Positions 24,967-32,196 of a stretch of 64,000 nt of DNA are shown in pieces. Source of the stretch: Tritrichomonas foetus (taxonomy: Eukaryota; Parabasalia; Tritrichomonadida; Tritrichomonadidae); NCBI GenBank assembly GCA_001839685.1, contig MLAK01000565.1, positions 1 through 64,000 on the forward strand, in the 5' to 3' direction. Every line of letters begins with the position of its first letter. Position 1 is the stretch's first letter. The notes under the pieces were generated by a model. That model ran no database searches. It was not told where the DNA came from and saw nothing but the letters and a program-made list of their open reading frames with translations. The position numbers and the translations under genes were made by a program.

Positions 24967-25094
24967 TAAAGAAAGATATAAGAAAGAAAGATATGAGAAA
25001 GAAAGATATGAGAAAGAAAAATAAATGAAAGAAAGATATGAGAAAGAAAGATATGAGAAAGAAAGATATGAGAAAGAAAGATATAGGAAAGAAT
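24967..25094. repeat. 15-bp minisatellite in convergent spacer
   Basis: About eight copies of agaaagaaagatatg, with one irregular copy around 25014-25030. It lies between the stop of the gene ending at 24909 and the stop of ARL3 at 25261, i.e. in a 3'-to-3' spacer. Confidence 0.9.
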
Positions 25095-25260: not shown

Positions 25261-25824
25261 TTAAAGTTTCAATGCTTTGACCATCCAACGCAAACCTTCA
25301 TTTACACCTGTTTTTTCAGTTGCCGAACAAGCCTGAATATGCCAATCATGGCTACGAATTGCATGCAATTCTAACTCTGTTGTAATCTGGGGTTAGAAAA
25401 AATAAAGGTACTTCAGCTGCTGTCAAGGCAGTTGCAAGATCTTGCTTGTTTGCCAAAATCAAAATTGGGACATTGCCCAATCTTGAATCTTGGAGCATTG
25501 TTGCAAGCTCAAATCCTGTTTCGTACATTCTCCGTTTATCTGCACTATCTATGACCCACACAATACCTGAGGCTCCAGCGAAATAATCGCCCCAATGCGT
25601 TCGGAGCGACTTTTGGCCGCCGATATCGTAAACATTGAATGTCGCGTGATCGAATTCGACTGATTTTGTGTTAAATCCGCGCGTTGGTGCAACAGTGTAG
25701 GGACTTGCACCAATTATTGCATGTAAAATCGAAGTTTTCCCGGCGTTATCGAGACCAAGGAAAAGTAACTTCTTTTTCTCTTTACTGACGCTTCCTCCCT
25801 GCTGTTAAAAATAAAACATACCAT
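25261..25824 (-). CDS. ARL3: ARL3-type small GTPase, three exons with two micro-introns
   Basis: The coding sequence is join(25261..25386, 25412..25798, 25822..25824) on the minus strand, 171 residues. Removing the two introns restores one frame. Exon 1 is only the ATG; exon 2 begins GGSVSKEKKKLLFLGLDNAG, giving an N-terminal Met-Gly as in ARF/ARL proteins. G-box motifs: GLDNAGKTS (P-loop), PTRGFNTKSVEF (switch I), YDIGGQKSLR (switch II), ANKQDL (G4), CSATEKTG (G5). WVIDSADKRRMYETG and EITTELELHAIRSHDWHIQA match ARL3 best. ARL3-GTP releases lipidated cargo in the cilium, fitting a flagellate. Without splicing of intron 2 the frame ends in PLFFLTPDYNRV and a stop, losing the last helix. ARL2 is the main alternative. 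Confidence 0.93.
25387..25411 (-). other. Micro-intron 2 of ARL3 (25 nt)
   Basis: Begins GTACCT and ends TTCTAACCCCAG on the minus strand. The TCTAAC branch-like motif is fused to the 3' splice site, as in trichomonad introns (consensus CTAACACACAG). Its removal turns the truncated frame into the conserved EITTELELHAIRSHDWHIQA. Confidence 0.92.
25799..25821 (-). other. Micro-intron 1 of ARL3 (23 nt)
   Basis: On the minus strand it begins GTATGT and ends TTTTTAACAGCAG. It sits directly after the ATG codon. An alternative 3' site three bases earlier (20 nt) would insert a Gln after Met; the 23-nt form is preferred because it gives Met-Gly. Either length must be removed to join the ATG to the GTPase frame. 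Confidence 0.85.
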
Positions 25825-26387: not shown

Positions 26388-27086
26388 ATGAGTTTTTGTA
26401 GAGAATCAAAAGCATCACAGGTTCAAGCAATCGAAGCTTATCAAAGGAAATGTCTTGAGAATTCAGGAAAAATCTATACAACTCGAAAAGATATCTCGAA
26501 AATCAGATCACGACTCCATAACCTTGTTACAAGCCCTGATTATTGGATGACTCTCGCACGATTTATTCACGGAGGCTGCCCCAAGCAAAAATTCGACGAA
26601 GCAATGGCGGTTTACCTTCCTAACAACGAAGCAAAAAAATTGCATAATGAATTTATTCGAGCAATCTTGTTTAACGCCCACTTTTCATCAGTCCCACCAC
26701 CAGAATATATTTCAACACGTCCAACAGAACGCGACGACCAACGAAAATCCTTCCCTCAAAATCAATTTAAAAATGATATAAAAGTTTTCAATTCTTATTC
26801 GGCCGCAGATCTCAGGCACCTTCCTTCACTTGATCAGTTATCAAAAAGGGTTGCCATTCTAACTGATATGGATGTTGATGAAGCCGCAAACATGGCACTT
26901 TTCCATGAATTGAAAAGTTTTATTGTTTCTTTGCTCACAAAATGTGTCCAGCTTCGCACAAGAAACTACAACTCTTCAAGATCAATGACAATCACGCCAG
27001 CACAAATTCTGCACACTGTAAACAATTGTTCTGAACTCAGATCAATAATTTCGCCTTCCATCCTAGCAAAATTTGAACTTTATTGA
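26388..27086 (+). CDS. TADA1: SAGA complex subunit TADA1/HFI1-like
   Basis: A 232-residue protein with the SAGA-Tad1 layout. The N-terminal block (about residues 33-96) reads DISKIRSRLHNL...YWMTLARFIHG, then KQKFDEAMAVYLP and KLHNEFIRAILFNA, matching the L...LG.NV..Y...L..F..GKISKEEFD......LH.EFLLAIL pattern. The C-terminal block (about 143-205) LPSLDQLSKRVAILTDMDVD, then AANMALFHELKSFIVSLLTK, fits the TADA1 histone-fold region. TADA1 pairs with TAF12 in SAGA, the Gcn5-containing transcription coactivator. The protein is shorter than human TADA1 (335). It lies in tandem upstream of the CHD-type gene, another chromatin gene. Confidence 0.8.
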   Translation: MSFCRESKASQVQAIEAYQRKCLENSGKIYTTRKDISKIRSRLHNLVTSPDYWMTLARFIHGGCPKQKFDEAMAVYLPNNEAKKLHNEFIRAILFNAHFSSVPPPEYISTRPTERDDQRKSFPQNQFKNDIKVFNSYSAADLRHLPSLDQLSKRVAILTDMDVDEAANMALFHELKSFIVSLLTKCVQLRTRNYNSSRSMTITPAQILHTVNNCSELRSIISPSILAKFELY

Positions 27087-27912
27087 TCGATTTATAAACC
27101 AAATGCTATATAGAAATTGGGAAATAATTGATCATTTTGGAGTATTTCAAAATCATCGTATTTCTTCTTTAAATAGAAAGAAATTAAATGCATTTTGATT
27201 ACTACATTGTTGTAGTTGAAGATGGTGAGTTACGTGGAGAAAAAGAATATTCACTACTATATTGTTTTTATTGAAAATATACCGGTTGCTATCATACCAA
27301 AGTATTTAAGGATCAGTGTAAGTTTTAGTGGCCATGTTGCAAATGAAATGCTGCTGATAGTGGAAATTACGAAAAAAAATATTTTTCATTATTTCCAATT
27401 TTGTGCCCATTAATATAAATATGATAAGTGGCAATAGTCATACTATTGATGGAATGGATCAATCTGTATAATTTTTTGGTCGAATTGCTCCTAAATTTAA
27501 TTATTATATTTCTTTGAATAACTATGTCAAATGACTGATTGTGATAGTGAAAACACATATTTGCTTGTTTGTTTCATATTAAATTATTTAAATATTATAG
27601 ATTTTCTAATTTTCCATATTTCTGATTATTTTATTTTCTGAATTTTTTTCTGAATTTTTGAAATAAAATATGAAACACTGATAACATCTTTAATCAAATC
27701 CATGGATTAGAATCCTCTTTGAAAAAAAAAATTCTGACCAAAACAATTGCTTTTTGGAAAATGATTTCTTTTCACACTTGATCGAAAATATATCTTCATA
27801 AACATGTATAACATCAAAATCATCATTAATTGCATGAATTTATTTAATTTTTGAAAGCGATTTTATATCTGGCCGGGAGATGCATCTCAAAAATATATTC
27901 ACGATAAGCAAA
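27087..27912. other. Intergenic region
   Basis: About 800 bp between TADA1 and the CHD-type gene. AT-rich with short frames only; an atttttgaaagcg segment lies about 60 bp before the CHD start. No gene seen. Confidence 0.6.
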
Positions 27913-30900
27913 ATGTCGAAGAAAAAAGCGACAACGAGTGAACAGAAAGAAACGACAGCCGAACTTCCTCCTTCGCCTTACGAAAGAATTTTGTCATGCA
28001 GGACTAATGCCAAAGGTGCTCCTGAATGCTATGTAAAACTTCGAGGAAAATCATATCGAGATTCGAAATGGATTTCAAACGACGAACTGTCTCAAAATCC
28101 ACAAACATCGTCAATGTTAACACGATTTTTACGGAATCAACGAGAATACGCAATGAATCCTCCATTCTACGATCCCCAATTTGATATTATTGATCGAATT
28201 ATAGCCAAAAAAGGCAAAAAATATTTAGTCAAATGGATGGGTCTAGGATACGACCAAATAACGTGGGAAAAAGATGTCACGCCAGAAGCTTTAGAAGATT
28301 ATCAAGCTCGTCAACTTCAAAATTATCCAATTGCGGCCGGCGACGTCTTTAAAAAACCAGATTTAAATATTCAAAATATTGCCTCTTATTCACTTGGCGA
28401 TACTGTTCTTGAATCATATCAAGTTTCTACAATGAATTTATTGATCCGTAATTTTTCAAAACTTCAATCGACTGATATAGTTGATCGTTATAATACACCA
28501 CTTATTACATCATGTGCAGCATTTATTGAATATGTCCTTCAAAACAGTGAAGAGCGTGGTCCAATTTTAATTGTTTCACCTTTTAATTCCATATCAAAAT
28601 GGTATAACATTTTCCGTGAAATAAAGTGTGCCACAACATTATCTTACACAGGCACTAAAGAAGCCAGACAAGCAGCTGTCGAACATGATTATTCATGTCC
28701 TAAGAAAAAGTTGAAATTCCATGTGTTAATTACTACTCCTGACATTCTCTCGCATGACTTAGAAATGTTAGCTGAAATTAAGTGGCGCATTGCCATTTTC
28801 GATGAAGCAAAAAGATTAAAAGATCCACAATCAAAATTAGCCAAAGTGCTTCAAAGATATGTAATTGGCACCCAAGTTGCTTTAATGCAATCACAAACAA
28901 ATATATTTTGTTTACAAAAACTTACTGATTTATTGATTTCTTCTTGTACAGATAAGTTCGTATCAGAAGATTTGAAAAAAGCAGCTCAAATTGCTCGTTC
29001 AAGAATTCAACCAAAACTTCTGAAAAGGAAAAATCAAATGAATGATGACAAAGATACTTATTCAACATATTATATTGATTGCCCATTAAGTGCAATTCAG
29101 AAAAAGGTTCTTCGGAAAGTGATTCATGATGCTGCTAGATTCGTTCAACGAAAAAACTTTATTCCAATCTGTCAAAGAATTCTTAGAATTTGCTCACATC
29201 CATTTTTGTTATATTCACAAGAATATACAATGCAAGATGTTGATTTTATTTCATCTTCTACAAAATTGGCAACACTCGAAGAACTTCTTATTGAAAATGT
29301 CAAGCAAAATGAAAGAATTCTAATCATTTCTGATTTTTCTTTAATGTTAGATATGATTGAAGATGTAGCCAATAATCATGCTTTTTCATTTGAAAGGATT
29401 GTAACACAATCTAAAGATATTCAGAGAGATGATGCACAAATTTTCTTATATAATCCCAAATATTGTACAATTGCATCATCAGTTTTTGAAACAATGAATG
29501 CCATTGTTGTTGTTGATGGTGATGGTTCCGAGTTGCAAAAATTACTTCAAAATAATCGACCACATCATCTTCATAAAATTTTTAAGTTTCAATGCAGAGA
29601 TTGCTCGGAATCTGTTTTAAATAATATTTGTATTTATAATCCAAATGTTCAACCAGATAATGAAAGATGTGAAAATATTTGTAAATTGTCGGCACTTGCT
29701 GCATTTTCAGATAAATCAACACCAGATCCCAAGGTGTTGTTACAAAAAGCTACAGTAGTTACGAATTCTTTTAATCCAAATGAATCACTCGAAAAAGAAT
29801 TCCAAGAATGTGATTTTTGGAGCTATTTGGTTGATGAAGATAAAACTTTAAAGAATCCAAAGTCATTTTCAAGCACAGAATTAGTTGATATCATTGATGA
29901 TGAAAGTGCACCACATGTTTGGACAAAACGTGAACGAGATCAACTTTTAAGAGGTCTTTGTAGATTTGGATTTGATCGATGGCGTGAATTAATTATTCAA
30001 ACTGGCTTACGAGTAAGTGTTCAAAGTGCAATTAAAGCATCACGTGCACTCTTACGTGAAATGATTCGATATATCGGATCTGGAACAGGTCATGCTGTCA
30101 CAAAAGAATTCATTAAAGAATCATCTTCAATGGAAGAAGAAGATGAAGTTGCTGATAAAGAATTCATTAATAAATCTGTTTTTAATGATGTTACATTTAA
30201 AACATCATTACAAAAGAACTCTGTTAGTTATCTAAAAGAAATCGAAATGTTACACTTTTTAGGAGAAAATTTGAAAGATAAAACTGATATTTATGAAGTG
30301 TCAGTTCCTCATCCATCTGGAGCACTCCCACAATGGTGGAAAGACGATTATGATCGTTATCTTGCATTTGCTACATGGAAATATGGGCTTGGTTGTTATG
30401 AACAATTCTTTGATGATTCAAACAAAGAAATTCTTAAAATATTTGGACCAGCAGATGATCCAATTGAATACCGCGACCTAAATGAACGAGTATTAAAGCT
30501 TGCAGAAGCAATTAAAAGAAAACAAGGTGTTAATCAACTTGGTATTAGCAATACTGAAAACTATGAAAAGAACAGTTATTCAAATGAAAATTTAAAGAAA
30601 TCTAAAAAAGAAGTCACTTCTAAGAAAGAAAATGATAAGAAGAAAACTAATTCATCATCAACTTCGTCTTCTTCATTTTCTGCCTCAAACGCAACAGCAG
30701 AATATGGTGGATCTAATTCACAAAAATGGACACGTGAAGAAATTCGTGACATGTTCCAATATATTTTGAAATTTGGAATTCCTGAAGATACCAATGGACA
30801 ACCTGATTATGAAAGATTTGGACGTGAATCTAATCTTTGTCGAACAAGAACAACTGAGCAAGTACAAGTTTATGTTGAAGATTATATTCGACGATGTAAA

Positions 30901-32196
30901 CTTACACAAGAAGAGGGTGGAATTCCACCAGGAACATCATCACGCGTTAATCAAAGATGTTCAGCAATGAAACAATTAAGAGAAATACTCAGAGATGAAA
31001 ATACAGCCAAACGAGTCTTTGAAAATTCAACCCATTGGCGTTTTTTACCGCGTGAATGGCGTCCTGAACATGAACTTTATTATTTCAGTGAAACACTTCG
31101 TCTTGGATTTGGTTCTTTCCAAGACATTCTCAGTGGTTCCAAATTTACAGGTGTGTTTCCAAATAACGAACCACCTGCTTTCTTATCCAAAGAACCAATT
31201 GTTATGAAGCGTATCCATTATTTATTTGATTTCCTTCAGAATGAAAAGAAAGGACTTCCGACCCTTCCTTCTTCTTCTAAAAGAAAATCAACATCTTCAT
31301 CTTCAAATTCTTCCTCATCAACATCAAAAACTACTTCCTCTTCTTCACGAAAAGCCAAATCTTCAACATCCGCCAAAGTATCTTCTACTTCAAGTAGTGG
31401 TACTTGTTCTGGAAGTCGAAGGAAAGGAAGACCACCGGAAGGATTTGTATTACAACAAAATGGTAAATTATTCCCATCCGATCGAGCAATATTTGATGGA
31501 AGAGTTAATTATCCATTGAATATAGGTAACAACAAATTAATTTTGAATCTGGGTGAGATTGGGTTTGATAAGCTAAACTTCCAATCTGATAGATATCTTT
31601 ATCCAATTGGTTATAAAGTTTCTTCAAGGAATCCATCAGCTATTGAACCTAATACTGAAGCTGTTTGGATCAATGAAATCACATGTGATGAAAATTCACG
31701 TCCTATTTTCAAAGCATGGATGGAAAATAATGCTTCACATATTTACGAAGGAAATTCTGCAAACGCTGTTTGGACTTATATTAGTGCTGATATTTCTAAT
31801 GTGAATAATGGGCAAAAATTTGCTCTTTCAGGATTAGACGCATTTTTACTAACTGATCCAATTGTTACTTATCTCATTCAAAACATGAAAGGGACCAAAA
31901 GATGTGCCAAATACAAAGCTAAAAAGATTAATATTCCACCTGAAGCACTTAAACTTCGGGACTGGATTCCAGCTGAAAAAGTTGATACTGAAAAATCTAC
32001 AGCACTTCAAAAGAAAAGAAATCCGAAATCTTCAAAGAATTCTTCACGAAAGAAAGAAATTGAGGAAGACGCCACGGATTCAAGTACTGAAATTGAAATT
32101 GAAGAAGAAGAAGAAGAAATCACGGAATACGAAGAAGAAGAAATTGTTGAATATGAAGAAGATGAAGAAAAAGAAGAAGCCTCAACTCAAGATTAA
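27913..32196 (+). CDS. CHD-type chromatin protein with degenerate SNF2 ATPase and FYRN/FYRC domains
   Basis: A 1,427-residue protein counted from the ATG at 27913 (MSKKKATTSEQ); an earlier in-frame ATG at 27880 would add 11 residues. Order: divergent chromodomain (about 24-75), chromodomain 2 (about 88-120, KYLVKWMGLGYDQITWEKD), SNF2 helicase-like lobes (about 165-580), SANT-like segment (about 667, WTKRERDQLLRGLCRFGFDR), SLIDE/Myb-like segment (about 937), Ser-rich linker, AT-hook-like RRKGRPPEGF (about 1169), FYRN (about 1195-1240, LYPIGYKVSSRNP), FYRC (about 1250-1325) and an acidic tail. The Walker A segment DEMGLGKT is replaced by VDRYNTPLIT, and DEAH is DEAK (297-300), so ATP hydrolysis looks lost. 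It probably serves as a chromatin scaffold (inference). Confidence 0.88.
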   Translation: MSKKKATTSEQKETTAELPPSPYERILSCRTNAKGAPECYVKLRGKSYRDSKWISNDELSQNPQTSSMLTRFLRNQREYAMNPPFYDPQFDIIDRIIAKKGKKYLVKWMGLGYDQITWEKDVTPEALEDYQARQLQNYPIAAGDVFKKPDLNIQNIASYSLGDTVLESYQVSTMNLLIRNFSKLQSTDIVDRYNTPLITSCAAFIEYVLQNSEERGPILIVSPFNSISKWYNIFREIKCATTLSYTGTKEARQAAVEHDYSCPKKKLKFHVLITTPDILSHDLEMLAEIKWRIAIFDEAKRLKDPQSKLAKVLQRYVIGTQVALMQSQTNIFCLQKLTDLLISSCTDKFVSEDLKKAAQIARSRIQPKLLKRKNQMNDDKDTYSTYYIDCPLSAIQKKVLRKVIHDAARFVQRKNFIPICQRILRICSHPFLLYSQEYTMQDVDFISSSTKLATLEELLIENVKQNERILIISDFSLMLDMIEDVANNHAFSFERIVTQSKDIQRDDAQIFLYNPKYCTIASSVFETMNAIVVVDGDGSELQKLLQNNRPHHLHKIFKFQCRDCSESVLNNICIYNPNVQPDNERCENICKLSALAAFSDKSTPDPKVLLQKATVVTNSFNPNESLEKEFQECDFWSYLVDEDKTLKNPKSFSSTELVDIIDDESAPHVWTKRERDQLLRGLCRFGFDRWRELIIQTGLRVSVQSAIKASRALLREMIRYIGSGTGHAVTKEFIKESSSMEEEDEVADKEFINKSVFNDVTFKTSLQKNSVSYLKEIEMLHFLGENLKDKTDIYEVSVPHPSGALPQWWKDDYDRYLAFATWKYGLGCYEQFFDDSNKEILKIFGPADDPIEYRDLNERVLKLAEAIKRKQGVNQLGISNTENYEKNSYSNENLKKSKKEVTSKKENDKKKTNSSSTSSSSFSASNATAEYGGSNSQKWTREEIRDMFQYILKFGIPEDTNGQPDYERFGRESNLCRTRTTEQVQVYVEDYIRRCKLTQEEGGIPPGTSSRVNQRCSAMKQLREILRDENTAKRVFENSTHWRFLPREWRPEHELYYFSETLRLGFGSFQDILSGSKFTGVFPNNEPPAFLSKEPIVMKRIHYLFDFLQNEKKGLPTLPSSSKRKSTSSSSNSSSSTSKTTSSSSRKAKSSTSAKVSSTSSSGTCSGSRRKGRPPEGFVLQQNGKLFPSDRAIFDGRVNYPLNIGNNKLILNLGEIGFDKLNFQSDRYLYPIGYKVSSRNPSAIEPNTEAVWINEITCDENSRPIFKAWMENNASHIYEGNSANAVWTYISADISNVNNGQKFALSGLDAFLLTDPIVTYLIQNMKGTKRCAKYKAKKINIPPEALKLRDWIPAEKVDTEKSTALQKKRNPKSSKNSSRKKEIEEDATDSSTEIEIEEEEEEITEYEEEEIVEYEEDEEKEEASTQD

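Follow-up and report, generated by a model that had tools for sequence, protein, structure and literature searches.

An ARL3-like small GTPase gene with two putative micro-introns, one of them directly behind the start codon

The window analysed here is a stretch of DNA of 64,000 nucleotides. Its minus strand carries a gene for an ARL3-like small GTPase (564 bp, 25261-25824) that apparently contains two introns, one of 23 and one of 25 nt. The coding part of the first exon consists of the ATG only (25822..25824), a layout shared with a paralogue at the locus C535. It is followed by intron 1 (25799..25821, 23 nt, phase 0, GTATGT...CAG, GTATGTTTTATTTTTAACAGCAG), which contains a branch-like TTTAAC at 25804-25809. 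Exon 2 (25412..25798, 387 nt) codes for the P-loop GLDNAGKT and the motifs DIGGQ and NKQD; it was assigned from the restored open reading frame (ORF) and a match to the Pfam family Arf. Intron 2 (25387..25411, 25 nt, GTACCT...CAG, GTACCTTTATTTTTTCTAACCCCAG) is also a phase 0 intron, is situated after codon 130 and has its branch motif TCTAAC at 25392-25397. Exon 3 (25261..25386, 126 nt including the stop codon) codes for ITTELELHAIRSHDWHIQACSA...KALKL and was assigned from the restored ORF and from a gap-free structural alignment described below. Both introns were assigned on the basis of frame restoration, motif rarity and apparent read-through in the protein records of relatives, and their coordinates, lengths and sequences are those of the original prediction. 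As predicted, the TCTAAC of intron 2 is fused to the 3' splice site in a trichomonad-like manner (TCTAAC+CCCAG); the corresponding part of intron 1 reads TTTAAC+AGCAG. Intron 1 has two adjacent CAGs at its 3' side and could end at either; its length would be 20 or 23 nt, both in frame. From the sequence we favour the second CAG and thus 23 nt, because most near relatives start with MGGxxS and because of the spacing between the branch motif and the CAG. The predicted folding of both introns is unremarkable (-1.6 kcal/mol with a z of -1.35, and 0 kcal/mol, respectively).

The unspliced gene had been described as broken at both ends, and this is the case. The frame of the ATG runs into a stop after 36 codons, and the frame of the P-loop shows the sequence TAA CAG CAG immediately before exon 2. 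Since a TAA precedes exon 2 and there is no other methionine ahead of the P-loop in the restored N-terminus, the start codon has to be supplied by an exon further upstream. When intron 2 is retained, a protein of 149 amino acids with the C-terminus VPLFFLTPDYNRVRIACNS results and the last quarter of the protein is lost. Excision of both introns restores a protein of 171 residues, MGGSVSKEKKKLLFLGLDNAGKTS...KALKL. The spliced form matches the Pfam family Arf with 192.3 bits over the profile positions 12-173 of 174, compared with 148.7 bits over the positions 12-136 when intron 2 is kept.

We also asked how often such segments arise by chance. The pattern GTATN{6,14}TAACN{2,3}CAG has one match in the window, with 0.22 expected and at least one match in 21 of 100 shuffled sequences; the GTAC version of the same pattern has one match as well, with 0.07 expected and at least one match in 7 of 100 shuffles. 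These sole matches are introns 1 and 2. A looser micro-intron motif yields 20 segments in the window, and single removal restores a long frame for intron 1 only; removal of intron 2 completes the frame once intron 1 has been removed too. The gene contains 42 segments of 18-40 nt with GT..AG ends, of which four pairs yield one complete ORF. All four use the donors of introns 1 and 2 and vary solely in their 3' ends.

The spliced protein aligns without gaps with the solved structure of ARL3, 5di3, from residue 9 to residue 171 (E 3.8e-50), and the join of intron 2, after residue 130, falls within this alignment. The best seven matching solved chains are all ARL3, and the G motifs of an Arf-family GTPase are intact. 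The N-terminus MGGSVSKEKKK is shorter than that of conventional ARL3; the MGLL stretch is not present, hence the name ARL3-like. The near relatives, judged from 120 of the 845 protein matches, which were listed and inspected, mostly carry the shortened MGGxxS start instead of MGLL. The identity to the Tritrichomonas musculus entry is 77% over 75% of the length and that to Trichomonas vaginalis 60% over 96%, which suggests a Tritrichomonas-like parabasalid. A midpoint-rooted tree of 35 sequences assigns the protein to the ARL3 side, where it groups with entries of which those bearing names come from T. vaginalis and T. musculus; the more conventional ARL3 of the genome (locus C237) branches just outside this group. 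The support of the base forks in this tree is limited (93/89), an entry named Arl3b (P0091) lies on the other side, and the sequences with translated introns were left untrimmed. The original prediction spoke of a complete ARL3 of 171 residues: the ORF of this length is indeed restored, but judging from sequence the gene belongs to a side branch of ARL3 with an MGGxxS start, and the conventional ARL3 is the one at C237.

The genome was searched for ARL3-like copies, and 150 of 294 candidates were scored, giving 115 scored matches. The nearest other locus is C535 with 60% identity, followed by C237 with 53%. At C535 an intron of 24 nt is situated at the identical place after the ATG (ATG|GTATTTAATCTTTTCTAACAACAG|GGT); it ends in a single CAG and its removal gives MGG. 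A second intron of 24 nt in phase 2 precedes the P-loop directly. Removal of both introns yields an ORF of 368 amino acids, whereas removal of one yields 23 or 11 amino acids. C237 contains an intron of 25 nt in the same P-loop position and phase as the second intron of C535, and its protein starts with MGLLRLL. An intact intron-less copy, which according to the original prediction would speak against the introns, was not found among the 115 scored matches, a result that, with 150 of 294 candidates scored, is not proof of absence. Both nearest paralogues carry micro-introns themselves. The protein encoded at C535 (L010) has in addition a lysine- and glutamate-rich C-terminal extension of about 200 residues. 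Two Rab-like GTPase genes, L031 (C135) and L046 (C234), have phase 1 introns of 24 and 23 nt, respectively, just before the P-loop, near, but not at, the phase 2 position of the ARL genes.

Several protein records of relatives appear to contain the introns in translated form, as read from back-translation of these records. Among the 120 listed matches, apparent read-through at the same residue as intron 2 is seen in four (P0001, P0012, P0037, and P0043), read-through of intron 1 in three (P0001, P0037, and P0043), and read-through of the P-loop intron in two (P0024 and P0031). The other listed sequences are incomplete, do not include the region or continue across it without interruption, and for them an intron-less gene, a correct gene model and spliced RNA are indistinguishable. 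P0012, a T. musculus entry named 'ADP-ribosylation factor protein 3' at NCBI (145 amino acids), loses its homology after ...SAAE and continues with VFFDFFSSNTRLQQN. This tail back-translates to GTN TTY TTY ... TCT AAC ACN AG followed by an exon resembling ATTACAACAGAA, and its C-terminus appears to be intron 2 translated in place. The expectation that gene finders truncate such genes is apparently borne out by this record. In P0001 both introns show up as additional residues within the frame (M-VCFFYFDFSNLQ-GGSHS and DADE-VSFYFFSNSQ-ITIELDL). In P0037 and P0043 the start reads ...Q|GG, and the C-termini, AADVHFPF and PADVRIIF, respectively, are those expected if translation runs through a donor and a T-rich stretch into the TAA of the branch motif.

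A scan of the genome for similar introns had been proposed together with the original prediction. The pattern GTAT N{6,18} TCTAAC N{2,3} CAG has 65 matches genome-wide compared with 20 in the reversed control. After merging of identical surroundings 64 distinct sites were tested, and a site was counted as passing when a frame of at least 90 amino acids was restored. Single excision restores the frame at 34 of the 64 sites, compared with 379 of 12,371 excisions of equal length at randomly chosen places in these loci (3.1%). The 34 restoring sites are 23 to 28 nt long; none of the 13 sites of 21, 22, 27 or 29-33 nt restores a frame. Fourteen of the 34 are situated within the first 11 codons, counted from the most upstream in-frame ATG. 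Of the sites failing singly, 7 of 30 pass when a partner with a relaxed motif is excised too (20 of 1,200 when the partner is placed at random). One of the seven, L023, was dropped, its partner being a segment of 34 nt with a weak motif. The accepted sites thus number 40, namely 34 single sites and six in pairs. The census covers the GTAT/TCTAAC form only, because other variants of donor and branch motif are not above the control.

Ten spliced proteins, hand-picked from the census set and the ARL genes, were compared with Pfam. Nine of them match a family and the remaining one has no match. The best family match spans at least one join in seven of the ten (three ARL proteins, a cyclophilin, a PH, a Tctex-1, and an RRM protein). 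In an EF-hand protein the best matches start behind the join and a weaker EH match alone spans it; in a HORMA protein (C200) the match likewise starts behind the join.

Two introns in one gene were found repeatedly. Two Tctex-1-like genes, L037 (C203) and L088 (C1026), each contain two micro-introns at matching positions, after codons 10.0 and 91.3 in C203 and after codons 9.0 and 90.3 in C1026. Further two-intron models were obtained for C224, C555, C702, C756, and C630, the last three with TAAT in place of TAAC in the second intron. As for introns directly behind the start codon, ATG followed by GTATGT, TAAC, and CAG matches once genome-wide, in the ARL3-like gene, compared with two matches in the control. 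A looser pattern gives five matches compared with three in the control: the ARL3-like gene, C535, C200, and two that resemble noise. The candidate at C200 is T-rich, contains TCTAAC, and its removal restores a frame of 351 amino acids; although its ATG lies outside the part covered by homology, C200 probably has a start-codon intron as well. The original prediction called a first coding exon of three bases striking. Such an exon is present but not unique, since C535 and probably C200 share it and phase 0 introns at the start codon have been described as a class from vertebrates, arthropods, fungi, and plants (Nielsen and Wernersson 2006, PMC1626468). As in that class, a phase 0 intron separates the first two codons of a gene for a short conserved protein; the present case differs in that the intron is only 23 nt long and the organism is apparently a parabasalid. 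In the glycine-rich protein gene L069 (C435) an intron of 23 nt follows after four coding bases (ATGT|GTATGA).

Introns of T. vaginalis have been verified by RNA-seq and PCR and fall into a long type A and a short type B (PMC12316389). Type B comprises 24 introns of about 25 nt in T. vaginalis, three of them of 23 nt, and 52 introns of 23-28 nt in T. stableri, where three genes carry two introns, all of type B (PMC12316389). They are characterized by TCTAAC and a loose donor (PMC6260720). Introns 1 and 2 of the ARL3-like gene share with type B the length of 23-28 nt, the GT/AG ends, A at +3, where type B has A or T, C or T at +4, and the T-rich interior. They also share the shorter branch-to-AG spacing of the shortest introns. 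The TCTAA of type B, which adjoins the 3' splice site directly, is seen in intron 2, and intron 1 has TTTAA in its place. The gene classes overlap, comprising small GTPases and Tctex-1 dynein light chains in both cases, and from reading of the sequences several armadillo-like proteins seem to belong to the set of the present genome, too. As to the differences, the lineage is another one, closer to Tritrichomonas as judged from ARL3 identity; T. vaginalis has one intron per gene, whereas several genes here have two, as in the three T. stableri genes; and the type B introns of Tctex-1 genes are in the 5' untranslated region in T. vaginalis but within the coding frame here. The original prediction placed both introns near the lower size limit. 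They are short, but 23-25 nt is normal for type B in Trichomonas (PMC12316389). The shortest known introns, of 15 nt in Stentor coeruleus and 18 nt in Bigelowiella natans (as cited in PMC12316389), are likewise hardly more than splice signals, yet they are shorter and belong to unrelated lineages. Among the listed titles and abstract openings of open-licence papers, none on micro-introns in Tritrichomonas was seen.

Taking these observations together, we are highly confident that this is a working ARL3-like small GTPase gene whose pre-mRNA contains two spliceosomal introns belonging to type B of the trichomonads; splicing itself, the branch nucleotide and the use of the second CAG in intron 1 are what we infer. 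Recognition by the spliceosome would rest on a loose GTAYNT donor, on the branch motif (C/T)TAAC and on a T-rich spacer between them. The last A of the branch motif is 6 nt from the final base of the intron, which would therefore consist of hardly more than its recognition signals. Removal of intron 1 would join the ATG to GGA GGA and give Met-Gly-Gly-x-x-Ser, and removal of intron 2 would connect the half with the NKQD motif to the end of the domain, which carries the SAT motif. Of the components required, U2 small nuclear RNA (snRNA) is found in two copies above the Rfam cut-off and a PRP8 domain in one copy (E 1.1e-61). New here are the lineage, the start-codon position common to a paralogue and relatives, and the partial census.

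Several observations have to be weighed against this interpretation. The U6 candidate of the genome scores 40.8, below the cut-off of 44. At 30 of the 64 census sites single excision does not restore a frame. The branch variant of intron 1 and the donor variant of intron 2 are not enriched genome-wide: TTTAAC with any GTWY donor has 129 matches, of which some were listed by place, compared with 317 in the control, a count that is unusable as a census, and the GTAC donor with TCTAAC has 8 compared with 12. (One of these eight is intron 2 of the ARL3-like gene, and two pair with GTAT introns in the Tctex-1 genes.) The TTTAAC of intron 1 departs from the TCTAAC of type B, where T at -11 was seen once in T. 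vaginalis (PMC12316389). Positions +8/+9 are T,T in intron 1 but T,A in intron 2, and type B of T. vaginalis has T at +8 and +9. The ARL3 entry of T. vaginalis (P0021) is uninterrupted at both intron places. Judged from their translated segments, the introns behind P0001 and P0012 would measure about 36, 30 and 32 nt, more than type B introns with their 23-28 nt. The start of P0012, MFISHSQ, fits neither MGGxxS nor an obvious read-through of intron 1. Finally, the study of 2025 could not confirm three short T. vaginalis introns described in 2018 (PMC12316389), and short introns can therefore be false calls.

The intron behind the start codon could further serve as a built-in checkpoint, in which splicing or the choice of the CAG (MGG or MQGG) decides on membrane attachment of the ARL3-like protein. 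Met-Gly-Gly-x-x-Ser would be encoded by the spliced mRNA only; it resembles an N-myristoylation signal, is followed by lysines, and the intron would have been kept in the paralogue and the relatives owing to this role. By comparison of the motif with the general consensus, the MGGxxS start could be a myristoylation signal. The doubled CAG, however, is not common to C535, and conventional ARL3 proteins are reported as non-myristoylated (PMC8358228). We consider such a role unlikely.

Alternatively, intron 2 could be genuine and the start different, either with the initiator in another upstream exon or with an intron 1 of 20 nt, giving Met-Gln-Gly-Gly. Both CAGs are in frame, which leaves some room for this view. 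The MGGxxS start of most near relatives and the single CAG of C535, which gives MGG, argue for the start proposed here. Moreover, the first AG is situated directly behind TAAC and is closer to it than in the census introns, whose pattern demanded at least 2 nt before the CAG. A different start is in our view very unlikely.

A pseudogene, left behind when a non-essential ARL3 duplicate was disrupted by inserts of 23 and 25 bases, would account for a frame broken twice in a genome with other ARL3-like genes. But both inserts have the form GT...CAG with TAAC equally far from the end, and the GTPase motifs are intact. The paralogue and the records of relatives show inserts of different sequence with the same signals at the same residues, which decay would not yield, and we regard a pseudogene as highly improbable. 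Assembly or sequencing errors are extremely improbable as the origin of both inserts: T-rich runs are error-prone in general, but errors are not expected to produce segments of 23 and 25 nt with splice signals, and the same arrangement is seen in C535 and in protein records of other sources.

On the interpretation of two spliced type B introns, the RNA-verified micro-introns of Trichomonas would extend to what appears to be another parabasalid lineage, by one gene and a partial genome-wide census in which two micro-introns per gene and introns right behind the ATG recur. Annotation that disregards introns as short as 23-28 nt would give genes with wrong ends. For the annotation of Tritrichomonas foetus KV-1, introns of 175 bp on average and no more than two exons in any gene are reported (PMC11415386); a three-exon gene of the ARL3-like kind, if T. 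foetus has it, is therefore not modelled there. Introns with hardly anything beyond their signals would also be well suited to testing the minimal requirements of a spliceosome.

In the surroundings of the ARL3-like gene, a 15-nt unit (AAAGAAAGATATGAG) is repeated in tandem with 8.4 copies just downstream (24968-25093). An ORF of 232 amino acids on the plus strand (26388-27086) is divergent from the gene and matches SAGA-Tad1 (E 1.4e-11). Farther along on the plus strand (27880-32196) a chromodomain-helicase-like protein of 1438 amino acids is encoded, which has a T. musculus relative with 56% identity (P0123). This relative is named 'choline dehydrogenase 6' at NCBI, apparently a wrong expansion of CHD6.
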